In this document: piece by piece, positions 2,671 to 11,707 of the stretch | Layout of the letters: each line of letters starts with the position of its first letter | Position numbering within the stretch: the first letter of the stretch is position 1 | DNA from: Chloroflexota bacterium | GTDB lineage: Bacteria; Chloroflexota; Anaerolineae; Aggregatilineales; Phototrophicaceae | Assembly (NCBI GenBank): GCA_028873975.1 | Contig: JAPPMO010000026.1 | Location: 149,378-213,377, forward strand | Direction of reading: 5' to 3' | DNA length: 64,000 nucleotides | Position numbers and translations under genes: made by a program | Notes under the pieces: generated by a model | The model's database searches: none | Told to the model about the DNA's origin: nothing | The model's input: the letters and a program-made list of their open reading frames with translations, nothing else

Positions 2671-4344
2671 TCAACCAGGTACCCAAGCCTGCGGAGCGAT
2701 GCCCTCGACATCGGTCTTGACATCAATGACAACCGGGCGATTCGCCGCGAAGGCGCGCTCCAGCGCCCCGGCGATTTCGCTCGGCTTGGTCGCGGTCATG
2801 CCCAGGCAGCCCATCGATTCGGCGATGCCCGCGAAGTCGGCATCATCGAAAAGCCACAATTCATCCGAGCCCGCCGTCGTCCCCCCATAGATGGCTTCGA
2901 CGCCATCGCGTTCCTGATTCAGCGAGTGATTATTGTTCACAGCGATCACAGTATTGACGCCGCAGCGCGCGGCCGTCTCCAGCTCCGCCAGGTGGTACCA
3001 GATGCCAGCGTCGCCGGTGAAGCAGAGCACCGGACGATCGGGCGCGGCGCATTTGGCGCCGATCGACGCGGGTAGGCCCCAACCCAGCGAACCTGAACAG
3101 CGAATATAAGACTGCTCGGGATGGCGCAGGTCGAGCATGGCGCCGGTCCAGACGCCGGAGTGCCCGGTATCGGAAACGAGGATGGCGTCCGAGGGCAGGT
3201 TCTCGCTGAGTTCGCGGCAGAGGCGCTCGGGGCGGATGGGCAGTCTGTCGGCCTTGTAGTGTTCGCTGACTTCGGCTTTCCATTCGCGCGCGAGCGATTG
3301 TACACGCTCAATCCATTCCTGGCGCCGCGGGGCGCTTTCGGCGGTTGCCAACAGCCGACGCAAAGTCTCCCTGACATCGCCTTGCAAGCCGACCTCAACG
3401 GGGTAGTTGCGGCCGATCTCGGCGGGATTGATATCGAGCTGAAGGACTCTGACACCGGGCGGCGGGATGGTGTAATTATTGGTGAGCTGCCCGCCGGTGT
3501 GGCTGCCGATGTAGAAAACCAGATCGGCCTCGCACAGGATCTGGTTGGAACAGGCGCGCGAATATGAACCGGGCACGCCGACCGCCAGGGGATGATCGGC
3601 TGGGAACATAGCTTTGGCATTGAGCGCTGTCGCAACCGGGATCGAGAGCTTGTCCGCCAATGCAACCAGTTCAGCGCGCGCGTCCGATGTCGTGACGCCG
3701 CCGCCGGCCACGATGACCGGTCGCTGCGCCCGGGACAGCAGCGCCAAAGCCTCGTCGATCGAGCTCTGATCCGCCGTCGGGCGAAATGGCGGCAAGCTCG
3801 CGAATTGCTCCTCGACAATGACTTCCAGGTCCGCCTCGACATTGACAACCGCGCCGCCGTCAATCCCTTGCAGGTCCAGGTGCGTCGGTCCCGGCGTGCC
3901 TGTCGTCGCCGAGCGAAAGGCTTGTCGCAGATGATGCCCCAACTCCGTCGGATTGGAGACATAAGCCTTGTACTTTGTGACAGCCGAAAAAGGCGCCATG
4001 TGATCGACTTCCTGGTAAGCGTGACGCAGTTGACGCTCCTGCAATTCGCGACCGGTGATGGCGACAACCGGCGAACAGGACAAGAAAGCGTCTTGCAAGC
4101 CGGCCGCCAGGTTAACCGCGCCCACGGATTGCGCCATGCACAAGCTGGGGGCGCGCCGGACACGGGCATAGGCATCGGCCATATAAGCCGCCGCTTTTTC
4201 GCCGCGCGCTTGCACGCGTTTGATGCCTAGCGATTCCATCTCCATCAGCGCGCGCGGCGCGATATAGGGCACGAAGAACACGGTATCAATACCGTATCCG
4301 TGGACGGTCTGCGCGAGCAGCCTGGCGCCGGTCATTTTAGGCAT
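2671..4344 (-). CDS. Acetolactate synthase-like thiamine pyrophosphate enzyme
   Basis: The 557-residue protein has the three-domain order of TPP enzymes: an N-terminal Pyr domain with the cofactor-activating glutamate (E49 in 'RGEKAAAYMADAYAR'), a central domain, and a C-terminal PP domain with a GDA...NNN metal/TPP motif near residues 440-470. The usual third Gly of GDG is Ala here. This family condenses or decarboxylates 2-oxoacids in the cytoplasm. Biosynthetic acetolactate synthase normally has a regulatory subunit gene beside it, and none is present. A catabolic or other carboligase is therefore as likely as branched-chain amino acid synthesis. AAGGG stands upstream of the ATG at 4344. 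Confidence 0.85.
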   Translation of the reverse strand: MPKMTGARLLAQTVHGYGIDTVFFVPYIAPRALMEMESLGIKRVQARGEKAAAYMADAYARVRRAPSLCMAQSVGAVNLAAGLQDAFLSCSPVVAITGRELQERQLRHAYQEVDHMAPFSAVTKYKAYVSNPTELGHHLRQAFRSATTGTPGPTHLDLQGIDGGAVVNVEADLEVIVEEQFASLPPFRPTADQSSIDEALALLSRAQRPVIVAGGGVTTSDARAELVALADKLSIPVATALNAKAMFPADHPLAVGVPGSYSRACSNQILCEADLVFYIGSHTGGQLTNNYTIPPPGVRVLQLDINPAEIGRNYPVEVGLQGDVRETLRRLLATAESAPRRQEWIERVQSLAREWKAEVSEHYKADRLPIRPERLCRELSENLPSDAILVSDTGHSGVWTGAMLDLRHPEQSYIRCSGSLGWGLPASIGAKCAAPDRPVLCFTGDAGIWYHLAELETAARCGVNTVIAVNNNHSLNQERDGVEAIYGGTTAGSDELWLFDDADFAGIAESMGCLGMTATKPSEIAGALERAFAANRPVVIDVKTDVEGIAPQAWVPG

Positions 4345-4741: not shown

Positions 4742-6127
4742 ATGAATGAAAAGGAAAGAAAAGCGGGAAACGAGCAGCAGCTAAGCAGGCGCGATCTGCT
4801 GAAAATGCTGGGCGGCAGCGCCGCTGGCATGAGCATGGCCAAGATCGCCGGCTTGGGCGGCTCGGCAGCAGCATTGCTGGGTGGCATGCCGGCCGGCGCG
4901 CAGAGCAAGGTCGAGATCTGGACCGGTTTCGGCCAGGGGCGTATGGCTGATGCCATGCAGGGCGCGATCGACAATTTCGCCGTGGAGAATCCCGAATTTG
5001 CTCCCGAGCACATCATCGTGCCCTGGGGCGAGATTACCGATCGCGTGATCGCCGCCACCGCCGCTGGTTCGCCCCCTGACGTGCATCGTGGTTGGTCCGG
5101 GACCGTTGGCAATGCCGCTATCGGCGCGCTGACCAATCTGCAGCCCTATGTCGATGCGCAAAATGTCGACTTGTCGGACTTCTGGCCTGCGACGCTTGAT
5201 CAGATGAAGTTCCAGGGCGATGTGCACGCCATGAGCATCTCGACCATCGTGCAATTCTTGTATTACAACAAGGATCGCATGAGAGAGGCTGGCTTGGATC
5301 CCGATAGCCCGCCGAGCACTATCGCCGAATTGGATGAGCAAGGCGCGGCGCTCAACGATGTGTCTGATGACGGCACGATCAATCGACTTGGGTTCTCGCC
5401 GACGGTGCCGGGCTTGCAAATCTGGGACTGGGGCGCGGCTTTCGGCAGCCAATACTGGGACGAATCCGAAGGCAATATCGCCATTGACGAAGAAGCCATG
5501 ATCGCCTTGTTCGAGTGGTACAAGTCCTACGCCGATCAGTTTGGCGCCGAGAACCTGCAGGCCTACGCCAGCACCTACGGCGGCAACAACTTCGGTCGCA
5601 ATACGCCACAGGGCATCTACTATACCGGTTTGATCACCTTCTGGGTCCTGGGCAGTTGGTCCTATAACGATATGGGCGAATACGGTCCGGATGTCGATTT
5701 CGATGTCATTCCGATCCCGCAACTGGCGAGCGCTGATGACTCGGCTCCGGGAACATCTAATGGCAACATGTATTTGGTGCCCGCCAATTGCGCCAATCCG
5801 GATGGCGGCTTCGCCTTCGCCAACTTCATGAGTTCGTCGCCCTTCGTGGCCATCAACAAGGCGCTGCCCGACAGCGTCATGCCTTCCCGACGCTCCTTGG
5901 CGAACCTGCCGGAAGTTGACGAGAAAGAAGGCGGCTGGACGATCCTGGCGCGCGACGAAATCTTGCCCAATACCTTGCAGCGTCCCAGCTTCGGCGGCAA
6001 CGGCTTCTTTGGCGGCGCGCTGAACGAAGCGGCGGAAAATGTCATGTTCCACGGCGCCGACCCGGCCGAAGTGCTGGCCGATGCGGTCGCGCGTTCGCGG
6101 CGTGAAGTTGAACGTCTGCGTGGCTAG
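4742..6127 (+). CDS. ABC importer extracellular solute-binding protein, Tat signal (importer 1)
   Basis: This 461-residue periplasmic/extracellular sugar-binding protein looks like solute-binding family 1. The N-terminus carries a twin-arginine export signal (SRRDLLK, R16-R17) followed by an Ala/Gly-rich hydrophobic stretch and an AGAQ cleavage-like site near residue 53. The mature part begins 'KVEIWTGFGQGRMADAM', typical of carbohydrate-binding proteins. A GAGGAG site precedes the ATG. Two CUT1-type permeases follow after a 162-base gap filled with repeats. The substrate cannot be read from sequence, though oligosaccharide or polyol is likely from the family. Confidence 0.9.
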   Translation: MNEKERKAGNEQQLSRRDLLKMLGGSAAGMSMAKIAGLGGSAAALLGGMPAGAQSKVEIWTGFGQGRMADAMQGAIDNFAVENPEFAPEHIIVPWGEITDRVIAATAAGSPPDVHRGWSGTVGNAAIGALTNLQPYVDAQNVDLSDFWPATLDQMKFQGDVHAMSISTIVQFLYYNKDRMREAGLDPDSPPSTIAELDEQGAALNDVSDDGTINRLGFSPTVPGLQIWDWGAAFGSQYWDESEGNIAIDEEAMIALFEWYKSYADQFGAENLQAYASTYGGNNFGRNTPQGIYYTGLITFWVLGSWSYNDMGEYGPDVDFDVIPIPQLASADDSAPGTSNGNMYLVPANCANPDGGFAFANFMSSSPFVAINKALPDSVMPSRRSLANLPEVDEKEGGWTILARDEILPNTLQRPSFGGNGFFGGALNEAAENVMFHGADPAEVLADAVARSRREVERLRG

Positions 6128-6289: not shown

Positions 6290-7210
6290 ATGTTCAAACT
6301 AAAGCGAGACCCCGCCGATCAATCCAACAGTTGGCGCACGGACAATTTGCCGGCATGGGGCTTGTTCTTCGTGGCGCCCTGGATTATTGGTTTTCTGGCT
6401 TTTACCGTTTATCCCTTCTTCGCGTCGCTTTACTTCAGCTTCACGAATTTCAATATCATCAACTTCAGTCCGCGCTGGGTCGGCCTGGACAATTATGTCG
6501 AGTTGTTTACTGCCGATCCGATCTTCTGGATATCGATCGGCAACTCGATCAGATACGCCGCGCTCTTGCTCATTTTTGCGACCGTGTTTGACATCTTCAT
6601 CGCCTATCTGCTGAGCTTGAATGTCAAGTTCTTGTCGATATATCGGACGGTTTTCTTCTTTCCCGTCCTGGTGCCGGTGGTCGCGGCCAGTCTGACCTGG
6701 ATCTGGATTCTGAATCCGCGCTTCGGACTTATCAATGGCTTGCTGGATTTGATAGGCGTCAAAGGACCCAACTGGCTGGCCTCGCCGGATACTGCCATGT
6801 TATCGATCATATTGATTGCGGTCTGGGGCAGCGGGCGCCAAGTAATCGTCTATCTGTCGGGCTTCAACGATATTCCGCGCTCTCTTTATGAAGCCGCCGA
6901 TATTGATGGCGCCTCCGGCACGCAAAAGTTCTGGCGCATCACGTTGCCGCTCTTGTCGCCGCAGATCTTTTTCAATGTCGTTACGCTGATTATCTTTTCC
7001 CTGCAATCATTTTCCGAAGTTTATATCATGACGGGCGGCGGTCCAGCCAATTCGACCCTGCTCTACGCCGTCAATCTGTATAACCGCGCCTTCCGCGATT
7101 TCGCCATGGGTTACGCTTCGGCGCTGGCTTGGATCATGTTCCTGCTCATATTGGGATTGACACTCATTATCTTCAAGTTCTTAAGCGGACGAGTCATCTA
7201 TGAACGCTAG
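6290..7210 (+). CDS. Sugar ABC transporter permease, MalF/UgpA-like (importer 1)
   Basis: The 306-residue inner-membrane permease has six hydrophobic segments. The cytoplasmic ATPase-contact loop contains 'SLYEAADIDGASGTQKFWRITLPLL' (the EAA motif), near residues 200-225. It is the first of the paired CUT1 permeases and lies 15 bases upstream of the second. It should form the channel with that protein and an ATPase encoded elsewhere. Confidence 0.92.
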   Translation: MFKLKRDPADQSNSWRTDNLPAWGLFFVAPWIIGFLAFTVYPFFASLYFSFTNFNIINFSPRWVGLDNYVELFTADPIFWISIGNSIRYAALLLIFATVFDIFIAYLLSLNVKFLSIYRTVFFFPVLVPVVAASLTWIWILNPRFGLINGLLDLIGVKGPNWLASPDTAMLSIILIAVWGSGRQVIVYLSGFNDIPRSLYEAADIDGASGTQKFWRITLPLLSPQIFFNVVTLIIFSLQSFSEVYIMTGGGPANSTLLYAVNLYNRAFRDFAMGYASALAWIMFLLILGLTLIIFKFLSGRVIYER

Positions 7211-7224
7211 GACGAGGCGATAAG

Positions 7225-8115
7225 ATGGCAGTATTGCGACCTGCCCTCGCCAACAGCCGCGCTCTCAGCGCTGAAGAGCGAAGGTATTTCCTCGCTCGGC
7301 GAATGAAGACGCTCCTCACGCATGCCATCTTGATCATCTTTGGCATCACCTTCATGCTGCCTTTCGTCTGGATGATCAGCAGCTCGTTGAAACCGAATGT
7401 CGATATCTTCGAGTTGCCGGTGCGTCTGATCCCCAAAACCTATCGTCCGGAAAACTACATCGACGCCACCAACGCCATCCCCTTCTGGCAGTATCTGTGG
7501 AACTCAACCTATTACACCATCTTCGCCACCATTGGCGCGGTGCTGTCCAACACCTTCATCGCCTATGGCTTCGCGCGGGTGCGCTGGCGCGGGCGCAATG
7601 TGCTCTTCATCATTGTCATCGCCACCATGATGCTGCCCTTCCAGGTGCGCATGATCCCGCTCTATATCCTCTTCGCCAAGATCGGCTGGCTGAATACCTT
7701 CTTGCCGCTGATCGTGCCGAACTTCTTCGGCAACGCCTTCTACATCTTCCTGATGCGTCAGTTCATGATGACGCTGCCGAAGGAGCTGGATGACGCGGCG
7801 CGCATCGACGGCGCCAGCGAATGGGGCATCTTCTGGCGCATCGCCGTGCCGCTTTCCAAACCGGCCATCCTGACTGTCGCTATCTTCGAGATCATCCACA
7901 CCTGGCATGACTTCGTCGGTCCGCTGGTTTATTTGCGGCACCCGACCAAGTACACGCTGTCCATCGGCTTGCGCCTGTATTTCACCCAGTACGGCGCCGA
8001 ATGGGGACTGCTGATGGCGGCCGCGGCCATGTTTACCATACCGATGGTGATCTTCTTCTTCTTCGCGCAGCGCTCCTTCATTGAAGGCATCACCCTCACC
8101 GGGCTCAAAGGCTAG
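7225..8115 (+). CDS. Sugar ABC transporter permease, MalG/UgpE-like (importer 1)
   Basis: The 296-residue protein is the second CUT1 permease. An EAA loop is visible ('ELDDAARIDGASEWGIFWR', residues about 190-210), and the C-terminus 'FIEGITLTGLKG' is the ending usual for this subfamily. The stop at 8115 is followed within 5 bases by the chaperonin-like gene, so the two are almost certainly co-transcribed. No ATP-binding subunit is present in the operon. Confidence 0.92.
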   Translation: MAVLRPALANSRALSAEERRYFLARRMKTLLTHAILIIFGITFMLPFVWMISSSLKPNVDIFELPVRLIPKTYRPENYIDATNAIPFWQYLWNSTYYTIFATIGAVLSNTFIAYGFARVRWRGRNVLFIIVIATMMLPFQVRMIPLYILFAKIGWLNTFLPLIVPNFFGNAFYIFLMRQFMMTLPKELDDAARIDGASEWGIFWRIAVPLSKPAILTVAIFEIIHTWHDFVGPLVYLRHPTKYTLSIGLRLYFTQYGAEWGLLMAAAAMFTIPMVIFFFFAQRSFIEGITLTGLKG

Positions 8116-8119
8116 GCGC

Positions 8120-9772
8120 ATGGCTCGAGTGCTGCATCAGCCGCAGACGCGAGACGCGATCAAAGCGGGCATTGATACGCTGGCGGGCGCGGTCATCCCC
8201 ACGCTGGGACCGCTCACGGGACCGGTCGCGCTGGATGACGCCAATCGGAAGGGTTCGCCCGAACTGCTGGATGATGGCGGGGTTATCGCCCGGCGCATCC
8301 TGCAATTGGACGATCGCGACGCCGATATCGGCGCCATGCTGCTGCGCGAGGCGCTCTGGGAACAGCGCCAGAGTTGCGGCGACGGCACGGCGACGGCCGC
8401 GGTCCTCTATCAAACGGTTTTCAACGAGGGGCGCCGTTTCATCAGCGCCGGCGGAGATGCCATGTTATTGCGCCAACACTTGGAAGCCGGCATCCAGATC
8501 ATGCTCGCAGCCTTGCAAGAGCAGGCGCATGAGATCAGTTCGCCGGCTGAAATCGAGCGCCTAGCTTTGTCCGTCTGCGGCGACCGAGAAATCGCGCGGA
8601 CACTGATGGATATTTTCGACGTGCTGAGTCCGCATAGCCCGATCGACGTCCGCGATGGCGGGCGCGACCTGCGCCATGAGTTCTTTTTGGGCTCGTTTTG
8701 GGAGAGCAAAGTCCCCTCCGGCATTGTTTTTGAGGGTGTTGCGGGCGAGCGCATCGAACTGAAGAACACAGCCTGGCTGATCAGCGATTTTGAGATTGGT
8801 GATCTGGGGGTGCTGGTCGCGCTGGTTGCTGGCCTGTATGAAGCGGGCTACGACTCGCTGGCGATCGTCGCCAAGTCATTCTCCGAGCAGGTTATCGCCG
8901 CCCAAGGCGCCAACAAACAGATGGACGATTTTACGCTCGTCTATATCGAGCCGACCGGACTGGTCGACGAGCAGGAAGCCGCGCTTGAGGACCTGGCATT
9001 GATTACCGATGGTCAGGTCTTGAGGACGATTACCGGGCACAGCCCGGGCGCGATCACGCCAGACATGCTCGGCGCATCGGAACTGGCTTGGCTCGATCGG
9101 GAGCGCTTCGGCATCATCGCCGGCGCTGGCGACGAGGAGACTGTCCAGCGCGAGATTGCGGCGCTGGAGCGGCGTTTCGCGCTGAGCGGCGATTCGCGTC
9201 AGCAAGAGCTGCTGCGAAGTCGAATCGGGCGACTGCGCGGTGGATCAGCCGTCGTCTACGCCCACGGCAGCAGCGAGAGCGAGATGCGCTATCAGAAAGA
9301 CCTCATCCAGCGCGCAATCGCAGCGATCCGGTCCGCTTTGCTGGGGGGCGTCCTGCCCGGTGGCGGGGCTGCCTTGCTGCGTTGTATCGAGCGCTTGCGC
9401 GAAAATTACGGCGCGGGCAGTGCCCCGCAGGAGCGGGCAGCCGGGCAGATCCTGATTGGGGCGGCGACAGCCCCGTGCCGACAGTTGCTCAGCAATGCCG
9501 GGCACGAAGCGCCGGGAATCGTGGTTGACAAGATCCTCTCCGGCGAAAACGGCGCCGCTTACGACCTGCGCGCCGACAACGCTGCGGTTAGGACCGAGGA
9601 AGGCCTGATCGATTCGGCGGCGGCGGTCATGAGCGCGGTGCGTAATGGCATTGGCGGGGCGGCGCTGGCGCTGACAGTCGATACGATTGTGCACCGAGTC
9701 AATCCGCCGTTGGCGATAGAACCGGGCGGCTTGCCATCGTCGACGGATATAGGAAATATCGAACTGAAATAA
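8120..9772 (+). CDS. Divergent GroEL/Hsp60-like chaperonin in ABC importer operon
   Basis: The 550-residue protein is about the length of GroEL and keeps its landmarks in order: TLGP (residues 28-31), 'LLDDGGVIARRI' (GroEL D52 region), GDGTATA (87-93), 'GGVLPGGGAALL' (GroEL AGGG region) and 'EEGLIDSAAAVMSAV' (GroEL D495 region). The apical domain is strongly diverged and the C-terminal Gly-Gly-Met tail is absent. By hand alignment the position of GroEL D398 is Arg. The ATG at 8120 was chosen because N-terminal homology begins there; an upstream ATG at 8081 lies inside the permease. No GroES gene is nearby. It could be a specialised chaperone for the importer or dioxygenase, or a scaffold without ATPase cycling. 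Confidence 0.85.
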   Translation: MARVLHQPQTRDAIKAGIDTLAGAVIPTLGPLTGPVALDDANRKGSPELLDDGGVIARRILQLDDRDADIGAMLLREALWEQRQSCGDGTATAAVLYQTVFNEGRRFISAGGDAMLLRQHLEAGIQIMLAALQEQAHEISSPAEIERLALSVCGDREIARTLMDIFDVLSPHSPIDVRDGGRDLRHEFFLGSFWESKVPSGIVFEGVAGERIELKNTAWLISDFEIGDLGVLVALVAGLYEAGYDSLAIVAKSFSEQVIAAQGANKQMDDFTLVYIEPTGLVDEQEAALEDLALITDGQVLRTITGHSPGAITPDMLGASELAWLDRERFGIIAGAGDEETVQREIAALERRFALSGDSRQQELLRSRIGRLRGGSAVVYAHGSSESEMRYQKDLIQRAIAAIRSALLGGVLPGGGAALLRCIERLRENYGAGSAPQERAAGQILIGAATAPCRQLLSNAGHEAPGIVVDKILSGENGAAYDLRADNAAVRTEEGLIDSAAAVMSAVRNGIGGAALALTVDTIVHRVNPPLAIEPGGLPSSTDIGNIELK

Positions 9773-9816: not shown

Positions 9817-10671
9817 ATGAGTTGGGAACCAACAGAAGAACAAAAGCGAAATTATGAAGAGCGCGGTTACTTCACAGTGCCTAACGTGGTCCCGCGGCAG
9901 ACCGCTGCCGAGATGCTGGGCGTGATCAAGAACGCGATCTTGACGCCGGATGCCGACGACATCATGACCGATGCCGACCCGATGGATCCGATGAACGATG
10001 ATAGTCCCGACGCGCGCGCCGTGCGCTTCCGCAAACTGAGCAAGTTCAATCAGCGCAATCCGTTAATCTGGCATAACGCCCACTGCGGCAAACCGGTTCT
10101 GGAAATCGCGCGCTACTTCCTCGGCGACGACATCTTGCTGAAATACGACAGTTGTTTCCTCAAGCCGGCGCGTTCGGGCAGCGCCACGCCCTGGCATCAA
10201 GACAATGGGCTCTGGCGCGATGGCGATATCGAGCCCTTCAACTTCTGGATGGCGCTGGACCCGGCCACGATCAAGAACGGCTGCCTGCAAATGATCCCCG
10301 GCAGTTACAAGACCGAGATCGTCCCGCACGTTCTGTACGAAGACAGCATCCATGGCGTGCTGCCCAAGGAGCGCGTCGAGGAGATGATCGATACCTACGG
10401 CGTCGAGCATATCGAGCTGCAACCGGGCAGCATCGTCGTCTGGCATAGCAGCGCCTGGCATTACAGCCCGCCCAATACCAGCGAAAAAGGCCGCATCGCC
10501 ATCGCCGGCGTGTTCAGCAGCCCCGATATCGTCGAAAATGGGCGCAGCGGCGATGTCGGTTACAAGTGGCTGATGAAAGATGGCGCGGTCATGACCGACT
10601 TCCCGGCGAAAGAATACACGATGAAACGGCAGACATTCTATCAGGCGCAGCCCTGGAAGAAAGTCAGTTAA
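9817..10671 (+). CDS. Phytanoyl-CoA dioxygenase (PhyH) family protein
   Basis: This 284-residue Fe(II)/2-oxoglutarate-dependent oxygenase has a complete metal triad: H127 and D129 ('PWHQD') and H215 ('WHYSPPNTS'), with R226 placed to hold 2-oxoglutarate. The AAGGAG site at 9800-9805 suits the ATG at 9817 rather than the TTG at 9808. It lies 44 bases after the chaperonin gene and is probably the last gene of the importer operon. Its substrate is unknown; a modified carbohydrate or small metabolite brought in by the importer is a guess from context. Its stop overlaps that of the convergent LacI gene by 8 bases. Confidence 0.9.
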   Translation: MSWEPTEEQKRNYEERGYFTVPNVVPRQTAAEMLGVIKNAILTPDADDIMTDADPMDPMNDDSPDARAVRFRKLSKFNQRNPLIWHNAHCGKPVLEIARYFLGDDILLKYDSCFLKPARSGSATPWHQDNGLWRDGDIEPFNFWMALDPATIKNGCLQMIPGSYKTEIVPHVLYEDSIHGVLPKERVEEMIDTYGVEHIELQPGSIVVWHSSAWHYSPPNTSEKGRIAIAGVFSSPDIVENGRSGDVGYKWLMKDGAVMTDFPAKEYTMKRQTFYQAQPWKKVS

Positions 10672-11707
10672 GCCGCTCGCCGAGCGGCGGCGCCGTCGAA
10701 TCGCGCAGTACAAGATGTGATGGCATAATGACGCGTCTAATGGGCGCGTCGGGCGCGCTTATCCGCCGCAGCGCCAGTTGAGCGGCATTTTCGCCCAATC
10801 CCCGCGGATCGGCTGAGACAGTCGTCAGGCTGGGATGCCACAGCGTGGCTTCCGGCACATCGTCGAAGCCGATGACGGCGAAATCCTTCCCCGCTTCCAT
10901 GCCCGCCGCGCGCAAGCCGAGCATCACGCCAAAGGCGATGACATCACTATAACAGTAAGCGCCTGAGGGCGGCAGCGACATGTTCAAGAGTTGTTGGATC
11001 GCGTCATAACCGCCCCGTCGGGTGACCGGACTGGCGATGCAAAGCGCGGGGTCAAACTTGATATGATGTTGCCGCAAGATGTCGCGATAGCTGCCCAAGC
11101 GCCGTTGCCGGGTTAGCGCCGAGTTGTAGCCGCCGACAAAAGCGATGCGGCGATGCCCCTGCTGTATCAGATGTTCCATCGCTCGTTCGGTTCCATTTTC
11201 GTCATCCATGCCGACGCAATCAACCGCCAGTTCTTCATAATACTGGTTCAGCAAGACCATGGGACAGAACTGCGACCATTTCCGCAAAGAGTCCATTGCT
11301 GTTCCCGCAACCACTGACAAGATCAAGCCATCAACATCGCCCTCCAACATAGTTGTGATCATGCGCGACTGTTTGTCCATATCATCGTCTGTCGCTCCCA
11401 ATAGCAGACTGTAGCCTTTCCCCGCCAGTTGAGATTCGGCGCCGGATGTCAACTCCGCATTAAAAGGATTCGACACGTCCTTGATGATCAAGCCGATGGT
11501 GTAAGACCGCCGCGTGCGCAGGCTGGCCGCGCGCTGATTGTAGACATATCCCAGCGCCTCAACTGCTTCCAGGACGCGCATGCGCGTCGGTTCCGAGATG
11601 CGCGGATTTGCCCGCAATGCCAGCGATGCGGTCGCCTTGGATACCCTTGCCGCATCGGCGACATCTTGCAGCGTCACCTTTTGATTGCCTGGCCTTCGAT
11701 TCGTCAT
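10664..11707 (-). CDS. LacI-family transcriptional repressor 1
   Basis: The 347-residue regulator has an N-terminal helix-turn-helix ('VTLQDVADAARVSKATASLA', residues 11-30) and hinge helix, then a periplasmic-binding-protein-like sensor domain ('IGLIIKDVSNPFN', 'AVIGFDDVPEATLWHPSLTTV'). It converges on the importer 1 operon. An operator-like site 12-26 bases upstream of its ATG resembles the one at the importer promoter, so it probably controls both. The inducer is expected to be the imported sugar or a breakdown product. Confidence 0.93.
   Translation of the reverse strand: MTNRRPGNQKVTLQDVADAARVSKATASLALRANPRISEPTRMRVLEAVEALGYVYNQRAASLRTRRSYTIGLIIKDVSNPFNAELTSGAESQLAGKGYSLLLGATDDDMDKQSRMITTMLEGDVDGLILSVVAGTAMDSLRKWSQFCPMVLLNQYYEELAVDCVGMDDENGTERAMEHLIQQGHRRIAFVGGYNSALTRQRRLGSYRDILRQHHIKFDPALCIASPVTRRGGYDAIQQLLNMSLPPSGAYCYSDVIAFGVMLGLRAAGMEAGKDFAVIGFDDVPEATLWHPSLTTVSADPRGLGENAAQLALRRISAPDAPIRRVIMPSHLVLRDSTAPPLGERLN

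Follow-up and report, generated by a model that had tools for sequence, protein, structure and literature searches.

The window, by which we mean the whole 64,000-nucleotide stretch of Chloroflexota DNA analysed here, carries within a sugar importer operon a gene for a divergent chaperonin (P0001) belonging to a lineage that forms a clade separate from housekeeping GroEL and is found mostly in Chloroflexota. As read from alignments, this lineage retains a nucleotide-binding scaffold and has lost the catalytic aspartate, most of the GroES-contact residues and the GGM tail of GroEL. Conserved gene order points to dedication to proteins encoded alongside, typically a BNR beta-propeller and often a sugar-type ABC importer. 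The reading we favour, which we give about an even chance of being right, is that these proteins are GroES-independent, hydrolysis-impaired chaperonins dedicated to co-encoded proteins.

The sequence-only reading of this region had described a full-length but divergent GroEL-like frame inside an importer operon, and both parts of that description hold. The 550-amino acid frame is uninterrupted from ATG to stop, its TLGP, LLDDGG, GDGTATA, PGGGAALL and LIDS motifs follow the GroEL order, and genes for a solute-binding protein and two permeases lie upstream (Table 1). A search against Hsp60 profiles, proposed at that stage as a check, returns a match to Pfam Cpn60_TCP1 (84.3 bits against a cut-off of 34.3) that places the protein in the group I superfamily. 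The NCBIfam GroEL models span it almost whole but it falls below the GroEL equivalog cut-off (TIGR02348, residues 4–525, 250.5 against 582.1 bits), and its top sequence match in the PDB (2.2e-57) covers residues 8–524. Kinship with the group II chaperonins is not seen: the best CCT model gives 1.5e-05 compared with 2e-80 for a GroEL model, with scores of at most 23.7 bits for CCT models and at most 270.6 bits for GroEL models.

Structure prediction, another of the checks proposed, gave a GroEL fold (AlphaFold2, mean pLDDT 85.1, pTM 0.83) with equatorial, intermediate and apical domains all present. The highest TM-scores among the 50 matches listed (0.83/0.88) are to 5opx_A, a GroES-bound GroEL, with apo-like GroEL chains at ~0.6 among the matches listed; this is weak evidence that the predicted structure lies nearer the GroES-bound state, the model being of one chain and carrying no information on rings. 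The positions of GroEL R452 and E461, which we take to be the inter-ring pair of the double heptameric ring, are likewise R and E in the window chaperonin. Three orthologue pairs give dN/dS values of ~0.19–0.24, showing that the gene is under purifying selection. A chance motif match or a pseudogene is excluded by the Pfam match, the predicted fold and these dN/dS values. Within the operon the chaperonin gene is one of the faster-evolving, its product sharing 71.5% identity with the L054 orthologue compared with 89.5–93.7% for the permeases and PhyH.

Table 1. Features of the importer operon and its surroundings in the window
Feature	Coordinates	Strand	Evidence
Importer solute-binding protein	4742..6127	+	Pfam SBP_bac_1, 4.9e-22
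Importer permease 1	6290..7210	+	Pfam BPD_transp_1, 4.3e-14
Importer permease 2	7225..8115	+	Pfam BPD_transp_1, 7.1e-23
Divergent group I chaperonin (P0001)	8120..9772	+	Pfam Cpn60_TCP1, 9.6e-24; predicted GroEL fold
Codon of chaperonin Arg398, at the alignment position of the catalytic Asp398 in E. coli GroEL	9311..9313	+	
PhyH family dioxygenase	9817..10671	+	Pfam PhyH, 1.9e-30 (scanned from 9808)
LacI family regulator, convergent	10664..11707	-	Pfam LacI and Peripla_BP_3

Four nucleotides, rather than the five first counted, separate the permease 2 stop codon from the chaperonin ATG, and the spacing of 44 nucleotides between the chaperonin and the ATG of the PhyH gene stands as originally given. 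The PhyH gene occupies the slot in which most relatives carry a BNR propeller gene. No structured RNA was detected at gathering thresholds between positions 4000 and 12000 of the window.

The genome yielded six cpn60 genes, one canonical and five divergent. The four other divergent copies are 36–38% identical to that in the window and the canonical GroEL is 27% identical. Canonical groEL encodes a GGM tail and follows groES on another contig (C44); no other Cpn10 gene was detected in the assembly, which is 95.8% complete, in agreement with the earlier remark that no groES lies near the window gene. An ordinary second groESL copy is excluded by the absence of a groES of its own together with the lost catalytic residue. 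Compared with GroEL/Cpn60, then, the window chaperonin shares the three-domain fold, the nucleotide motifs TLGP, GDG and GGG, and the aspartates at 87 and 495, but differs in lacking Asp398, its own groES and a GGM tail, in its changed GroES contacts and in its low overall identity.

Orthologues of the window gene (66–89% identical) are present in 26 of 34 genomes of the same genus, its own included, one of them being split into two pieces (69–70% identity). A survey of the class (298 genomes) and a scan of named records identified chaperonin relatives in many families. Among the best 80 of the 237 named loci confirmed in the scan, which was capped, nearly all are labelled Chloroflexi, Chloroflexota or classes therein, and a few Actinomycetota, Acidimicrobiia, Bacteroidetes or 'bacterium'. 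The split between divergent and canonical proteins has 100% support both in a FastTree phylogeny of 143 rows, a run that warned of long branches, and in a quick IQ-TREE analysis of 40 hand-picked rows under a mixture model. One protein initially filed as canonical (L235) groups with the divergent clade in the trees. In both trees BNR-paired chaperonins are among the earliest to diverge within that clade, and the PhyH-linked proteins form a single clade with a long stem (0.82 by FastTree, 1.26 by IQ-TREE). A tblastn search against plasmids returned 589 records, all below 60% identity to the chaperonin; 40 are listed at ~29–31% identity, and those annotated are groL. On this search, plasmid-borne relatives were rejected.

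Residue numbering at the active site was anchored on the invariant R404 and G414–G416 of P0001 in the alignments. For the residue counts, members shorter than 480 amino acids were dropped and near-copies of at least 98% identity merged, reducing 171 proteins (canonical ones included) to 144. The window chaperonin has arginine at position 398 and thus lacks the catalytic Asp398 that marks the GroEL equivalog. Not one of the 127 non-redundant divergent members has aspartate at this position (Arg in 80, Glu in 19, Ala in 12, Lys in 5, His in 4, others in 7), whereas 15 of the 17 rows of the canonical set have aspartate at both 52 and 398. The two exceptions are the misfiled L235 (Glu398) and L234 (G049:C44), a canonical-branch GroEL with alanine at 398. 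Asp495 and Asp87, the latter presumably the Mg/nucleotide ligand of GroEL, are kept in all 127 members, and Asp87 is kept in the window chaperonin also. Aspartate is found at position 52 in 65 of the 127 and at position 51 in 116, with alanine at position 90 in 119, and in 73 members positions 52 and 398 are oppositely charged (counting histidine as basic). The opposite charges may mean that the nucleotide site has been rewired and is not dead, and the 19 members with Glu398 could possess residual catalysis; both points count against the favoured reading.

The positions that we take to be GroES contacts in GroEL (Y199, Y203, F204, V263 and V264) are occupied in the window chaperonin by V, I, V, G and A, so that the contact residues of GroEL are not found there, and positions 203, 204 and 264 are changed in most core members. 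Positions 234, 237 and 259, which we assume to belong to the GroEL substrate site, remain mostly hydrophobic in core members. In the PhyH, membrane-protein and BNR groups none of 112 members carries a GGM-like tail; of 14 canonical proteins, 8 do.

The loss of the catalytic aspartate from all 127 members and the alteration of the usual GroES contacts could also be accommodated by a non-folding scaffold or regulator, a ring or smaller oligomer that would organise the importer, the propeller or sugar enzymes, or sense nucleotide. In keeping with such a role, conservation in the BNR-paired group is lowest in the apical domain (40.6% mean pairwise identity compared with 49.5% for the equatorial domain). 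In the PhyH subclade, however, the apical domain shows no such deficit (73.6% compared with 72.1%), and the whole three-domain fold is retained in the predicted structure. Moreover, an extract of PMC3326522 describes a D398A mutant of GroEL that binds ATP normally and has 3% of wild-type ATPase activity, yet retains the ability to encapsulate and fold protein; folding can therefore survive a loss of hydrolysis. On balance, we regard the scaffold or regulator as unlikely.

Gene neighbourhoods were surveyed at 128 divergent loci (the 127 non-redundant members and the window) by frame-level profile searches reaching at most 1.5 kb downstream and 4.5 kb upstream, frame translations being used because our own gene calls missed some BNR genes. 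The downstream gene encodes a BNR protein at 82 loci, a PhyH protein at 18 and a multi-span membrane protein at 13, with none at 12 and a sequence edge at 3; upstream, an ABC permease is found at 72, none at 52 and an edge at 4 (an edge being less than 300 bp of sequence and no match), all of these loci being related by descent and the counts thus non-independent trials. At 20 canonical groEL loci (19 of 20 fetched plus that of the genome itself, with L255, a groEL without a match to the search motif, left out) no partner gene was found, 19 being without one and the last lying at a contig edge, and there is a single upstream permease. The conserved linkage to permeases, proposed as a check, is seen in relatives (72 of 128 divergent compared with 1 of 20 canonical loci). 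Neither outcome named beforehand as refuting the sequence-only reading, an absent Hsp60 match or a neighbourhood conserved in no relative, was obtained. The linkage to PhyH is confined to the subclade of the window chaperonin, and in the family at large BNR, which had not been anticipated, is the usual neighbour; PhyH as the general partner of the family is excluded by the survey.

Across 34 genomes the BNR profile gives 42 matches of at least 130 bits, and every one (a single split gene accounts for two) immediately follows a divergent cpn60 on the same strand and at a distance of at most 566 nucleotides, the next-best matches scoring at most 69 bits. The profile (A3) was built from chaperonin-adjacent genes, so that 42 of 42 means that no equally close BNR protein is encoded elsewhere in those genomes, not that the pairing was discovered independently. 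In a sample of 400 genomes from the phylum, 67 have a BNR match; in 12 of the 45 checked for cpn60 the two genes lie, by our reading, side by side, 9 of these pairs being confirmed by gene calls (11 fetched). In genomes of family f71 (G368, G437 and others), BNR proteins of 668–672 amino acids also match the partner profile and are encoded away from cpn60. Split frames occur in the propeller gene of G047 (L046, G047:C1) and in the chaperonin genes of L202 and G004:C154, reflecting assembly error or decay.

The BNR partner is typically ~310 amino acids long (some are 600–720) and has no obvious signal peptide, a feature that, like membrane spans, was assessed by eye. Pfam BNR is matched in 37 of 37 partners scanned and PSII_BNR in 35, and the alignment contains six Asp-box repeats and a closing repeat, which suggests a seven-bladed propeller. 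For the structural model of the L118 copy (pLDDT 93.4, pTM 0.91), the closest solved folds by E-value are GH74 xyloglucanases, so the propeller may be a sugar-binding protein and not a typical chaperone client; the full-length matches are YCF48, beta'-COP WD40, RACK1 and G-beta-5. The partner shares its fold with YCF48/HCF136-type BNR propellers (2xbg, TM 0.73/0.74), but differs in lacking a photosystem context, in being paired with a chaperonin and in ranking GH74 higher by E-value. A chaperonin–propeller link has a eukaryotic parallel in CCT, which binds seven-bladed WD40 propeller proteins (extract of PMC8544692). CCT/TRiC is a group II chaperonin, however, whilst the divergent chaperonins are group I by sequence, and the link here is known from gene adjacency.

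Permeases are missing from most basal members (1 of 12 'mid' members has one), so that the tie to the importer is probably a secondary one. Further genes in the vicinity of divergent cpn60s encode GH29 fucosidases, MFS transporters and GH32, GH2 and GH10 enzymes, but also non-sugar proteins (SMC, LiaF-like, methyltransferase), making sugar use a frequent but not universal setting. At five loci (L039, L069, L071, L072 and L075) the chaperonin and propeller genes come first in a cluster and GH29 fucosidase genes follow; the scanned L039 cluster has two MFS transporters in place of the ABC importer. A 465–470 amino acid protein is encoded immediately 5' of the chaperonin at L172, L182, L183, L190, L195, L196, L205 and L208, the L205 copy being a GH32-like enzyme, and a 708–723 amino acid protein with LacI-type sugar-binding domains is encoded beside the chaperonin at L124:2537-4663 and L142:10267-12438, the Pfam-scanned L124 copy matching URO-D as well. 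In one subclade, whose chaperonins have Lys52 and Glu398, the next gene encodes a multi-span membrane protein of ~260–311 amino acids (L049:3218-4153, L050:4291-5073, L051, L073:10086-10919 and some among L210–L224), the three scanned having no Pfam match.

A chaperonin devoted to folding the PhyH dioxygenase, one of the roles first suggested for the window gene, would fit the position of PhyH directly 3' of the chaperonin in all 18 loci of the window's subclade, and among 21 same-genus genomes the two orthologues are found in the same 18. The neighbour here is a PhyH family protein and not a binuclear iron monooxygenase, the setting of MmoG and of the mycobacterial chaperonin-like protein that we take to be MimG; compared by setting alone, those proteins differ from the present family, with its sugar importer and usual beta-propeller. 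MmoG and its mycobacterial homologue are nevertheless a precedent, being GroEL-like proteins co-encoded with a single catabolic system that requires them, as described in an extract of PMC7994243. The dioxygenase proposal is weakened by a genome without a chaperonin orthologue. In three of three genomes tested that have the chaperonin an orthologue of permease 2 is present (93–94% identity), compared with none of eight that lack it (best 50%). In one of these eight (G031) an intact PhyH orthologue (87% identity) occupies the syntenic site, but the genes for the binding protein, the chaperonin (two pieces, of 39 and 34 amino acids) and LacI are seen there as fragments only, and there is no permease match; the other seven have no close PhyH (at most 32%). 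Importer, regulator and chaperonin have thus disappeared together whilst PhyH stayed, although this is one event at one site and may be a chance deletion. An intact PhyH beside a fragmentary chaperonin makes PhyH unlikely to be an obligate client, and PhyH adjoins 18 of 128 family members only; we consider the dioxygenase-dedicated chaperonin decidedly improbable.

Might the gene instead be an ordinary extra GroEL paralogue, performing general chaperone work and present in the operon by chance? Such genes are common, duplicate and lone groEL genes being reported in 884 and 770, respectively, of 4,861 genomes (extract of PMC5406781). Against this stand the changes to catalytic and GroES-contact residues across the clade, the adjacency of all 42 strong BNR matches and the loss together with the importer in G031, and we see little prospect of this explanation being correct.

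For a GroES-independent chaperonin dedicated to co-encoded proteins, a mechanism can be sketched in which we infer ATPase state, rings and clients. The ring would capture a client, translated from the same mRNA, that is difficult to close or bound for the membrane. Binding of ATP would shift the apical domains, and, with hydrolysis very slow, one long-lived folding, holding or assembly event would replace the cycle timed by GroES. Importer components, or some other protein encoded in the sugar operon, are the likeliest clients of the window copy, in preference to PhyH. Several points run counter to the favoured reading: 12 of the 128 loci lack all three kinds of partner gene and 52 a detected permease, the window's subclade has no adjacent propeller, the BNR link is seen in 12 of the 45 phylum genomes checked, and several substrate-site positions are still hydrophobic. 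The scarcity of permeases in basal members, the reliance on one event in G031 and the similarity of the propeller to GH74 enzymes likewise weigh against it. A more speculative idea, which we think has only a slim chance of being true, is that a single seven-bladed propeller, with its pseudo-sevenfold symmetry, would stand in for heptameric GroES as the cap or plug of a sevenfold chaperonin ring, forming a nucleotide-locked, lidded chamber that assembles or gates sugar importers, with PhyH in that role in the window's subclade.

Operon-dedicated GroEL-like chaperonins are already known (MmoG and the mycobacterial homologue; extract of PMC7994243). A hydrolysis-impaired, propeller-paired and often importer-linked lineage appears to be new: a search of titles and abstract openings, with subscription papers and preprints mostly outside its reach, found no publication on the divergent family or the chaperonin–BNR pair. 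In the portions available, the main text of PMC6306507 (on sponge Chloroflexi) does not contain 'chaperon', 'groel' or 'phytanoyl', nor does PMC5904260 (on atypical type I chaperonins) contain 'propeller', 'mmog' or 'monooxygenase'.

If the favoured reading is correct, a bacterial phylum would possess a second chaperonin system, tied to single operons and working without GroES or the GroEL catalytic residue, that would be a natural counterpart of the eukaryotic CCT–propeller pairing. It would offer a direct test of the need of chaperonins for ATP hydrolysis and a lid, and would provide a testable role for the extra groEL-like genes of Chloroflexota genomes.
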